NCBI GenBank assembly: GCA_947491945.1
Contig: CANLLN010000019.1
Location: 1-64,000 of the forward strand
Direction of reading: 5' to 3'
DNA: 64,000 nucleotides
From: an uncultured Carboxylicivirga sp.
GTDB lineage: Bacteria; Bacteroidota; Bacteroidia; Bacteroidales; Marinilabiliaceae
The notes beneath the pieces were generated by a model. The model saw nothing but the letters and a program-made list of their open reading frames with translations, did not search any database and was not told where the DNA came from. Positions 28,836-31,814 of this stretch are shown one piece after another (position 1 is the first letter of the stretch; each line of letters opens with the position of its first letter). Both the position numbers and the translations under genes were made by a program.

Positions 28836-29534
28836 CTACATAAGGCCTTCGTCGGCAAAACTGCAGAAACCATTGTCGGTTACAATAATATGATCCAGAA
28901 CGGGTATGTCCATGATATGACCGGCCTCGCTCATTTTTTTGGTGATTTTGGTATCCGCCTCACTGGGTTGCAAGTTGCCACTGGGATGGTTATGACACAA
29001 TATAATGGCGGCCGCCAGATGATCGATAGCTGACTTAAGGATGAGCCGAACATCTATGACGGTGCCGGCAATACCACCCTGGCTGATCTTATTTTTGGCG
29101 ATCACTTTGTTGGAACGGTTCAGCATCAGCACCCAGAACTCTTCGTGGGGCAGGTCACCCAAAAGGGGCTGAAAGATGTTGTACACATCGCGGCTGCAGG
29201 TTATTTTGGGTCGGTCTTCACTCTCTTGCAGCTTGCGTCGTCGCCCCAGCTCCAGCGAGGCAACAATACTAATGGCTTTGGCTTCACCAATACCATGATA
29301 TTTACTTTTTAGGTCAGTCACACTTTTCTTTCCCAAAGTATTCAGGTTATTACGGCAGTCGCTAAGTATTTTTTTTGAAAGTTCAACGGCACTCTCGCGT
29401 GCACTGCCCGAGCCAATTAAAATGGCCAGCAGCTCGGCATCGGACAAGGAAGCCAGGCCTTTGTGAAGGAGTTTTTCGCGCGGACGGTCTTCCAGCGCCC
29501 ATTGTTTTATACTCAGGTGTTGGTAGCTTGCCAT
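28836..29534 (-). CDS. radC: RadC family JAB-domain protein
   Basis: A 232-aa RadC. The N-terminal helix-hairpin-helix part ('ASLSDAELLAILIGSGSARE', 'KYHGIGEAKAISIVASLELG') is followed by a JAMM metalloprotein domain with 'LCHNHPSGNLQPSEADTKIT'. Despite the name, a role in recombination repair is not supported for RadC in general; some mobile-element versions counter host defence. Here it is chromosomal, next to rpsT and the tRNA-Glu genes, and 6 bp before the FemAB-like gene. Confidence 0.95.
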   Translation of the reverse strand: MASYQHLSIKQWALEDRPREKLLHKGLASLSDAELLAILIGSGSARESAVELSKKILSDCRNNLNTLGKKSVTDLKSKYHGIGEAKAISIVASLELGRRRKLQESEDRPKITCSRDVYNIFQPLLGDLPHEEFWVLMLNRSNKVIAKNKISQGGIAGTVIDVRLILKSAIDHLAAAIILCHNHPSGNLQPSEADTKITKKMSEAGHIMDIPVLDHIIVTDNGFCSFADEGLM

Positions 29535-29623: not shown

Positions 29624-29628
29624 CTGCG

Positions 29629-29700
29629 CAGTCCCTAGGAGAATCGAACTCCTGTTTCAAGGATGAAAACCTTGCGTCCTAACCACTAGACGAAGGGACC
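29629..29700 (-). tRNA. tRNA-Glu (UUC), copy 3 of the array
   Basis: The minus strand begins GGTCCCTTCGTCTAGTGGTT. The anticodon loop reads TTTTCAT between AAGG and CCTT, giving anticodon TTC. The T arm has GTTCGATTC. The 3' CCA is not encoded. The sequence is the same as at 29734 and 30109. It is followed by a strong terminator. Confidence 0.97.
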
Positions 29701-29733
29701 TTAGTGCCTTGTAAGGCAATAAAGTTGTATGTG

Positions 29734-29805
29734 CAGTCCCTAGGAGAATCGAACTCCTGTTTCAAGGATGAAAACCTTGCGTCCTAACCACTAGACGAAG
29801 GGACC
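29734..29805 (-). tRNA. tRNA-Glu (UUC), copy 2 of the array
   Basis: Same 72-nt sequence as its neighbours, anticodon TTC. It begins only 13 nt after the rpsT stop codon, so it must be cut out of a transcript shared with the mRNA. Confidence 0.97.
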
Positions 29806-29818
29806 TTAGTGCTGCCTA

Positions 29819-30070
29819 TTAAAGCGTGTTAACCTTTTTGGTTAATTTAGACTTTAAGTTAGCGGCTTTATTCTTGTGAATAATATTATTCTTAGCCAGC
29901 TTGTCAAGCATCGAAGTTACTTTTGGAAGTAATTCCATCGCTGCTTCTTTTTCAGATGTTTCTCTCAATGCTTTCACAGCATTACGCGCAGTTTTTGCAT
30001 AGTAACGGTTGTGAAGTCTTCTCTTCTGTATCTGACGAATTCGCTTTTTTGCTGATTGATGATTTGCCAT
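29819..30070 (-). CDS. rpsT: 30S ribosomal protein S20
   Basis: An 83-aa, Lys/Arg-rich, all-helical S20 ([20 protein letters not shown], later [20 protein letters not shown]). It binds the 5' and 3' minor domains of 16S rRNA and stabilises early 30S assembly. Length and sequence are normal. It lies between tRNA-Glu copies 1 and 2, with 38 and 13 nt spacers, in one transcription unit. Confidence 0.97.
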
Positions 30071-30108
30071 CGTTCTACAATTAAAAATTGTTAATCTTCT
30101 TATCTTTG

Positions 30109-30180
30109 CAGTCCCTAGGAGAATCGAACTCCTGTTTCAAGGATGAAAACCTTGCGTCCTAACCACTAGACGAAGGGACC
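30109..30180 (-). tRNA. tRNA-Glu (UUC), copy 1 of the array
   Basis: The first gene behind the promoter at 30223-30253. It has the same 72 nt as the other two copies and anticodon TTC. Confidence 0.97.
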
Positions 30181-30222
30181 TTATTTGCTATTGGACTTGT
30201 GTATTTGTCTCAAATGCGGATG

Positions 30223-30253
30223 CAAAGATATAGCAAATTCATACCCTTCCAAA
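30223..30253 (-). promoter_or_regulatory. Promoter of the tRNA-Glu/rpsT unit
   Basis: On the minus strand TTTG (30250-30253) is followed 19 bp later by TATCTTTG (30223-30230). This is a full match to the Bacteroidota -33/-7 consensus and lies 43 bp before the first tRNA. Confidence 0.75.
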
Positions 30254-30375
30254 TTTTTTCACAAAAAAACATTCAAAAAAAATGCGCATTTTCGCCGTAT
30301 CTGGCTTCTAGTATTTGTATGATAGTGATTTAAGCGATTCAAAAAAATTAAACAAGACATTTAGCTCTTATTTAA

Positions 30376-30408
30376 TTTGCACAGCTTTCTATAAATGTTT
30401 TATATTTG
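30376..30408 (+). promoter_or_regulatory. Promoter of metK
   Basis: TTTG (30376-30379), a 21-bp spacer, then TATATTTG (30401-30408). It matches the Bacteroidota consensus and predicts a transcript start near 30414, exactly at the first base of the structured leader. Confidence 0.75.
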
Positions 30409-30413
30409 CAGCA

Positions 30414-30497
30414 GTGAAAAGTGGAAGGATTTGGCTGATTGCAACCACGTAAAAAAAGTGCTAAAACGCGTATTTCGTTCGTACCTCCTCTTTTCAC
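30414..30497 (+). promoter_or_regulatory. Structured metK leader, SAM-II-like riboswitch candidate
   Basis: The 150-nt leader holds elements in the order known for SAM-II: a P1 strand GTGG (30421-30424), GATTT (30428-30432), ATTGCA (30438-30443), the other P1 strand CCAC (30445-30448), an A-rich stretch, and GTGCTAAAA (30458-30466). An outer helix GTGAAAAG (30414-30421) with CTTTTCAC (30490-30497) extends to pair 30423-30428 with 30484-30488, which would take away the P1 strand. The P2 pseudoknot pairing of SAM-II is not obvious, so the class is uncertain. It is expected to control metK by SAM. Confidence 0.5.
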
Positions 30498-30560
30498 ATA
30501 TCATTATAGTATTAACACGGGCCTGTAAAATGAGCTTTACAGACTTTTATTTTTAAGGAT

Positions 30561-31814
30561 ATGGGATATTTATTTACATCAGAATCAGTTTCTGAAGGAC
30601 ACCCCGATAAGGTGGCCGACCAAATCTCCGACGCTTTACTGGATAACTTCTTGGCCTTCGATCCGGATTCAAAGGTGGCATGTGAGACTTTAGTTACCAC
30701 AGGTCAGGTGGTGCTGGCCGGCGAGGTGCACTCCAAACACTATGTGGATGTGCAGGAGGTAGCACGCCGTGTTATTAATCGTATTGGTTACACCAAGAGT
30801 GAGTATCGTTTCGATGGCGATTCATGTGGTGTTTTCTCAGCCATTCATGAGCAGTCGTCTGATATTAATCAGGGCGTTGATCGTGCTGATAAGATGGATC
30901 AGGGAGCCGGCGACCAGGGCATGATGTTTGGTTATGCTTCTAAGGAAACTGATGATTACATGCCTATCTCACTCGAGTTGTCGCATCGTTTGCTCATCGA
31001 AATGGCCAATATTCGTCGTGAGGGCAAGGTGATGACCTATCTGCGACCTGATTCCAAGAGTCAGGTGACCATTGAGTATGGCGAAGATAAGCAACCCAAG
31101 CGAGTGCATACCATTGTGGTATCAACACAGCACGATGAGTTTGATGCCGATGAGCCTATGCTTGCCAAAATTAAGGAAGATGTGCGAAAGGTATTGATTC
31201 CTCGTACTATTGCGCAGTTGCCACAACGTGTTCAGGATTTATTTGATGACGACTATATATTACATGTTAACCCAACGGGTAAGTTTGTGATTGGTGGTCC
31301 GCATGGTGATACGGGCTTAACGGGTCGTAAAATTATTGTGGATACCTATGGTGGTAAGGGAGCCCATGGTGGCGGTGCTTTTTCGGGTAAAGACCCCAGT
31401 AAAGTGGATCGATCGGCTGCTTATGCTGCCCGACATATTGCGAAGAATATGGTGGCCGCCGGACTGGCCGATGAGGTGCTTGTGCAGTTATCGTATGCCA
31501 TAGGGGTGGCAAAACCCGTGGGTGTGTTTGTGGATACTTATGGTACTGCCAAGGTAAAGTTAAGTGATGGTGAAATTGCTGCTAAAATTGCCGAAGTTTT
31601 CGATCTGCGACCCGCAGCCATTGAGGCGCGCCTGAAGCTGCGTTACCCCATGTATGAAGAAACAGCGGCATACGGACACATGGGACGCACGCCGCGTACG
31701 GTTACTAAAACATTCGAATCGCCATATTTTGGTGCTAAAGAATTGGAAGTTGAGCTTTTTACGTGGGAAAAACTGGATTATGTAGACGTAATTAAAGAAG
31801 CCTTTGGACTATAA
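30561..31814 (+). CDS. metK: S-adenosylmethionine synthase
   Basis: A 417-aa MetK: ATP plus methionine to SAM, phosphate and pyrophosphate. '[20 protein letters not shown]' holds the ATP-site His. '[12 protein letters not shown]' and '[20 protein letters not shown]' are the family signatures. The length is at the longer end seen in Bacteroidota. The start is fixed by the first conserved residues. It is preceded by a strong promoter and a structured leader and followed by a terminator, so it is a single-gene unit probably under SAM feedback. Confidence 0.97.

Follow-up and report, generated by a model that had tools for sequence, protein, structure and literature searches.

A putative SAM-II riboswitch ahead of metK in Carboxylicivirga and its relatives, with a competing strand and a candidate start-codon pairing

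The 64-kb window considered here (the whole 64,000-nt stretch of DNA from an uncultured Carboxylicivirga sp.) contains a metK leader in which a core resembling that of SAM-II riboswitches lies inside a potential longer helix, and this raises the questions of whether the core is an aptamer of a known kind and of which base pairs could pass its state on to the gene downstream. The gene, at 30561-31814 (+), encodes a methionine adenosyltransferase (SAM synthetase) of 417 aa, matching TIGR01034 with 509.3 bits against a cut-off of 309.4. The promoter consensus of Bacteroidota is TTTG / TAnnTTTG, and direct reading of the leader gives a putative promoter at 30376-30408 (+), made up of TTTG (30376-30379) and TATATTTG (30401-30408), from which the transcript would be expected to start near 30411-30413.

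The aptamer, its class and its distribution

In a comparison of the window with all Rfam families, 30415-30474 (+) matched RF01726 (SAM-II 'long loops') over the full model (positions 1-60), with 67.8 bits against a gathering score of 44 and an E value of 6.2e-11; it was the sole riboswitch found. The aptamer ends 86 nt upstream of metK, which as the next gene downstream supplies the SAM-gene context of RF01726, and the genome of the window yielded one RF01726 aptamer and one metK. By direct reading, GTGG (30421-30424) and CCAC (30445-30448) are followed by GATTT, TTGCA and GTGCTAAAA, in the order known from SAM-II, and these are the elements, at the positions, from which the initial annotation had proposed a SAM-II-type core before metK. 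TGCTAAA (30459-30465, +), placed by the Rfam alignment and by comparison within the family, comprises the candidate 3' strand of P2 and the conserved SAM-II core, and we take it to participate in SAM binding as in SAM-II structures.

A permissive Rfam run on 30380-30600 listed seven matches at E <=10, none of them to a SAM-V model; a comparison with the SAM-II and SAM-V models, suggested beforehand, therefore leaves RF01726 as the one over its cut-off. In the same run RF00521 (SAM_alpha) fell below cut-off, with 17.8 bits of the 36 required by that model. The leader does share the element order GATTT, TTGCA, CCAC, GCTAAA with SAM-II as described in the accessible part of Corbino 2005 (PMC1273637), which mentions occurrences among the Bacteroides group, Bacteroides thetaiotaomicron being named in the legend to a figure. 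Judged by its sequence, the aptamer of the metK leader is an ordinary SAM-II riboswitch, an added member of the published class RF01726 and no new class, because SAM-II long loops are already listed for Bacteroidetes under that accession (table row 'SAM-II long loops', Bacteroidetes, marine, in Weinberg 2010, PMC2864571); the thought that it might be a variant class can be dropped, since the class it matches was published in 2010. As far as the accessible part of that paper goes, the aptamer sequence and structure are the same by the Rfam model, but most of what is described below, both the strand that competes for P1 and the pairing over the start codon, lies beyond the end of the match at 30474, and the window's family lacks the CTG:CAG part of P2.

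Within the aptamer, both strands of P1 (GTGG, 30421-30424, and CCAC, 30445-30448, both +) are invariant in 30 of 30 aligned family leaders, and GTGG/CCAC recurs in all 67 parsed leaders of the family. Leaders of other families (n=29) have GAGG/CCTC in 24 cases and GTGG/CCAC in five, so that a compensatory change in P1 is seen across the RF01726 class, in one pair and perhaps as a single event. Covariation of P1 among related metK leaders, which had been suggested as a check, is accordingly absent from the 30 aligned, invariant family leaders and appears only when these are set against other families. For P2, the candidate pseudoknot, GCA (30441-30443, +) can pair with TGC (30459-30461), and GCA:TGC is invariant in the family (65/65), hence without covariation. 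The CTG:CAG extension of P2 occurs in at least 20 of the 29 leaders from other families and in none of the 65 from the window's family; the earlier doubt about P2 is thus borne out for the extension but not for GCA:TGC. Seven leaders of other families (L082, L084, L089, L090, L092, L094 and L096) have an extra insert between P1 and GCTAAA, often self-complementary, which may be the 'long loop' after which the class is named.

RF01726 was found over its cut-off in 67 of 71 genomes of the window's family, the Marinilabiliaceae. The four genomes without an aptamer also gave no metK with a query that recovers the window genome's own metK, so incomplete assemblies are likelier than loss of the riboswitch. 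Across the phylum, 63 of the 395 genomes drawn had a match, over cut-off in 57, and the best 30 of the 63 matches, the window among them, were used as phylum leaders. Downstream of the aptamer, metK was present in 95 of 96 parsed leaders, the 96th stopping at a contig edge. The 97 loci (two of which, L043 and L044, come from the same genome) were reduced to 94 for the leader tests by leaving out L065, whose core reads GTGCTAACA and so falls outside the motif used, L062, where the contig ends, and L006, in which metK starts 14 nt past the core. When named genomes were searched for exact matches to a leader pattern, 11 records came up, seven of them titled Carboxylicivirga, one Saccharicrinis, one Marinilabiliaceae bacterium and two Bacteroidales, which makes Carboxylicivirga the probable genus of the window.

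A strand competing for P1

The outer helix joins a 5' arm, GTGAAAAG (30414-30421, +), to its perfect complement, CTTTTCAC (30490-30497). The latter belongs to a longer putative anti-P1 strand, CCTCCTCTTTTCAC (30484-30497, +), delimited by folds, swap test, unbroken helix and pair counts, whose outer part pairs with 30414-30421, whose inner part pairs with 30423-30428, and which has a second register with 30421-30429. The minimum free energy fold of 30412-30500 recovers exactly the outer helix and the inner extension (30423-30428/30484-30488) of the initial annotation, with a z of -1.54 and with 12 of 200 shuffles folding as well. The outer helix of the window's leader is by itself not beyond chance: its duplex energy was matched by 18 of 100 mononucleotide shuffles and its best unbroken helix by 31 of 200 dinucleotide shuffles, an unremarkable outcome because a purine-rich P1 strand here meets a pyrimidine-rich leader. 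Single leaders beating the 5% mark of shuffles were likewise a minority, both by duplex energy (18/65 in the family, 7/29 elsewhere) and by unbroken helix (9/65 and 7/29).

Comparison between leaders was more telling. In the family (65 leaders, 19 genera), native strands paired at -18.03 kcal/mol against -15.90 kcal/mol (sd 0.57) for strands swapped across genera, a fraction of 0.0001 of 20,000 permutations being as low, and in the full set (94 leaders, 35 genera) the values were -15.6 and -13.6 kcal/mol (sd 0.43). No such effect (0.90) was seen for a control segment lying before the point where the transcript is expected to begin. With the unbroken helix as the measure, the swap test gave 0.0087 for the family and 0.00045 for all leaders together. 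In the other families the anti-P1 pairing was weak when judged by duplex energy (0.067) and suggestive when judged by the unbroken helix (0.030), and in genus g30 it was absent from most leaders. Pair counts were taken from an alignment (A1) of 30 of the 65 family leaders, cut at the predicted strand and selected visually because they pair in the same register as the window, so that the counts lean towards the helix. In it, 85% of outer-helix cells were paired against 74.4% in shuffles and 40-60% in slid versions, and 24 cells were changed on both sides against 9.4, a typical compensatory exchange being that of GTGAAAAG/CTTTTCAC for GGATAG/CTATCC. Three of five measures lay above all 500 shuffles; the numbers of pairs changed on both sides (4 vs 3.8) and of pair types (11 vs 10) did not. 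RNAalifold, applied to these 30 leaders, recovered P1 together with two small hairpins but missed the outer helix, and none of its pairs had changes in both strands, an outcome that two alternative states would explain and that lends the outer helix no support. Overall, the comparison with its compensatory changes argues for a competing strand conserved in the family, in keeping with the covariation anticipated among relatives, while in the window alone the helix is not beyond chance. A further candidate, an anti-core hairpin between GCTAAA and the downstream leader, had seemed probable on visual inspection but was rejected because it did not pass the swap test (0.44 for all leaders, 0.74 for the family, 0.22 for other families).

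Whether outer helix and P1 exclude each other, as the initial annotation had it from their shared GTGG, depends on the pairs considered. In the predicted fold, bases of P1 are used only by G30421 and the inner extension, and for these the exclusion stands; the remaining seven of the eight outer pairs persist when P1 is enforced, and for them it does not. The second register (30421-30429/30489-30497), with nine pairs, three of them G-U, forms the strongest unbroken helix here (-12.6 kcal/mol) and would fully exclude P1. Elsewhere in the family, other genera have a strand that targets P1 and the core, for example GGATGGA or GGGATTTGG, pairing that covers P1/core and would thus exclude the aptamer. 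The seven coexisting pairs fit an alternative, which we consider rather unlikely, in which the outer helix would be a mere stabilising closing helix in both states and the pseudoknot alone would repress. The relative L006 (genome G033) also speaks for it, having no space for an anti-P1 strand between GCTAAA and its metK, and it may work by direct occlusion. Against a closing helix stand the best unbroken helices, which in 45 of the family's 65 leaders overlap P1 or the core by at least 3 bases, and the position of the window's start codon, 95 nt from the core and so far for direct occlusion.

A candidate pairing over the start codon

The anti-P1 strand adjoins a second element that is new here and absent from the earlier description: CATATC (30497-30502, +), which is complementary to GATATG (30558-30563, +) and which, by prediction, can cover the metK start codon that GATATG spans, beside the outer helix. 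In an alignment of the 14 leaders of the window's genus, the conserved blocks outside the aptamer centre on TTTTCACATATCA and GATATGGGATAT and are separated by a spacer that varies; GATATG is present, and CAT(A/G)TC kept, in 14 of 14. Beyond an A-G mismatch, two more pairs (30494-30495/30565-30566) extend this helix into the anti-P1 strand.

The effect of the aptamer on the start codon is a computed prediction, derived from partition functions calculated both freely and with the aptamer enforced, in which pseudoknot, SAM and co-transcriptional folding are ignored. In the genus, whose 14 leaders share ancestry, mean predicted AUG openness fell from 0.356 to 0.155 on enforcing the aptamer, and none of 30 and none of 150 shuffle sets were as low. 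Pairing of CAUAUC with the start region gained at least 0.2 in nine of the 14 leaders, the window's rising from 0.37 to 0.64. Of the others, L015 and L017 show almost no change, L023 and L025 have very little of the start-codon helix whether or not the aptamer is enforced, and L022 drops from 0.31 to 0.08. For the window's leader, AUG openness is already low without enforcement (0.08) and stays low with it (0.05), the codon being mostly paired either way, and 47 of 150 shuffles drop as much. Over 94 leaders and 35 genera, the region from -12 to +9 changed by -0.043 against +0.006 in shuffles (0/30 as low) and the AUG alone by -0.054 (3/30 shuffle sets as low). For the family there was no net change at the AUG (-0.003; 21/30 shuffle sets as low), and in genera g18, g7, g15 and g30 the AUG opens, by +0.03 to +0.10.

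Covariation of the anti-start pairing was seen in genus g20 (13 leaders), with 0 of 20,000 permutations by unbroken helix and 0.0003 by duplex energy, and was absent within g18 (0.63-0.64) and the window's genus (0.92-0.94), in the latter as invariant strands would lead one to expect. Across genera the swap test was only suggestive (0.07 for all leaders, 0.08-0.13 for the family, 0.18-0.28 for other families). In the family, the part of the leader that precedes the start codon is more stable than when shuffled (mean z -1.52, SE 0.22, 18 genera), and weakly so in the window's genus (z -0.86) and leader (z -0.54). In one g20 leader, L068, 11 bases of pairing are possible between the strand GTCCCATTACT and the start region of metK, while CCATTACTC, which overlaps that strand, can pair with GAGTAGTGG in the 5' arm and P1; this is the clearest two-partner strand.

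A proposed switch and its rivals

The following course of events can be proposed, in which SAM binding, transcript start, the order of co-transcriptional folding and the direction of control are those that we infer. The aptamer (30415-30474) would be made first in transcription. With SAM present, P1 and the P2 pseudoknot would fold and the GTGGAAGG strand would be retained by the aptamer; the anti-P1 strand would then be denied GTGGAAGG, and the adjoining CATATC would pair with GATATG, covering the start codon. With SAM absent, the anti-P1 strand would invade P1 and the core, and the long outer helix that forms would take bases needed by the start-codon helix, leaving the start more open. An OFF switch is the likely logic of the leader, and its specific form, an RF01726-type SAM-II switch that represses metK at high SAM via translation, seems on balance modestly probable. 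More tentative, and given less credence, is the extension of this scheme to the metK leaders of the family and its relatives as a shared SAM-II platform, in which one composite strand would either dismantle the aptamer or hide the start codon; it would suit translation start without Shine-Dalgarno pairing, and would re-target between genera (5' arm, P1, SAM-binding core) with its function kept.

A translational OFF switch, here the likely mechanism, belongs to a familiar type. According to the accessible part of PMC9373788, the SAM-II riboswitches of metZ and metA in S. meliloti down-regulate in response to SAM, and that of metA controls translation, as proposed for the window's metK. There, however, metZ has a predicted terminator and metA a pseudoknot over the Shine-Dalgarno sequence with a further terminator downstream, whereas here a scan gave no terminator and the proposed target is a distant start codon. 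No description of the switching part of SAM-II in Bacteroidota was found in the open-access literature, and the accessible parts of PMC2864571, PMC12121620, PMC2258182, PMC6429828, PMC1273637, PMC9373788, PMC7366714, PMC13273304 and PMC10907184 do not describe the platform; the additional file of PMC2864571 on SAM-II expansions may hold such a description. If true, a conserved strand exchange with the start codon as its end point would account for riboswitch control of translation in the absence of a Shine-Dalgarno sequence, and the exchange proposed names concrete bases for mutation.

Control might instead be exerted on transcription, and attenuation by the SAM-II riboswitch, which is unlikely, would use as intrinsic terminator, when SAM is bound, the spacer hairpin CTGTAAA-loop-TTTACAG (30523-30542, +, from predicted folds) and the T-rich 30545-30554. 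Predicted terminators are frequent on the SAM-II platforms of Proteobacteria (PMC2258182 and PMC9373788, in their accessible parts), and in the genus four of the 14 leaders have a terminator-like hairpin, compared with 0 of 42 shuffles. The window's leader is, however, not one of the four, and such hairpins number 3/51 in the rest of the family (shuffles 11/153) and 0/29 elsewhere (shuffles 1/87), so that a terminator as general platform, having no support outside part of the genus, was rejected. A simple scan of 30200-30700 for a G+C-containing hairpin with a T run found no intrinsic terminator; at 30523-30554 there is a hairpin, but it is weak and A+T-rich and its T run is interrupted, and no coupling is evident, because the hairpin and the anti-P1 strand do not overlap. 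Quite improbable is Rho-dependent attenuation, in which SAM binding would free the pyrimidine-rich anti-P1 strand as a Rho loading site: the C/U richness of the strand in the genus, from which the rest would have to be deduced, is also explained by its pairing with the purine-rich P1 strand. Chance resemblance, with no riboswitch of any sort, is of negligible probability and already refuted at the sequence level by the E value of the window's match and by the retention of the aptamer before metK in the family.

Next to the leader and on the opposite strand, 29628-30180 (-) holds three tRNA-Glu genes (ttc) with equal Rfam scores, two and one around the gene for ribosomal protein S20 (29819-30070), and a RadC family gene (28836-29534, -) adjoins this group.
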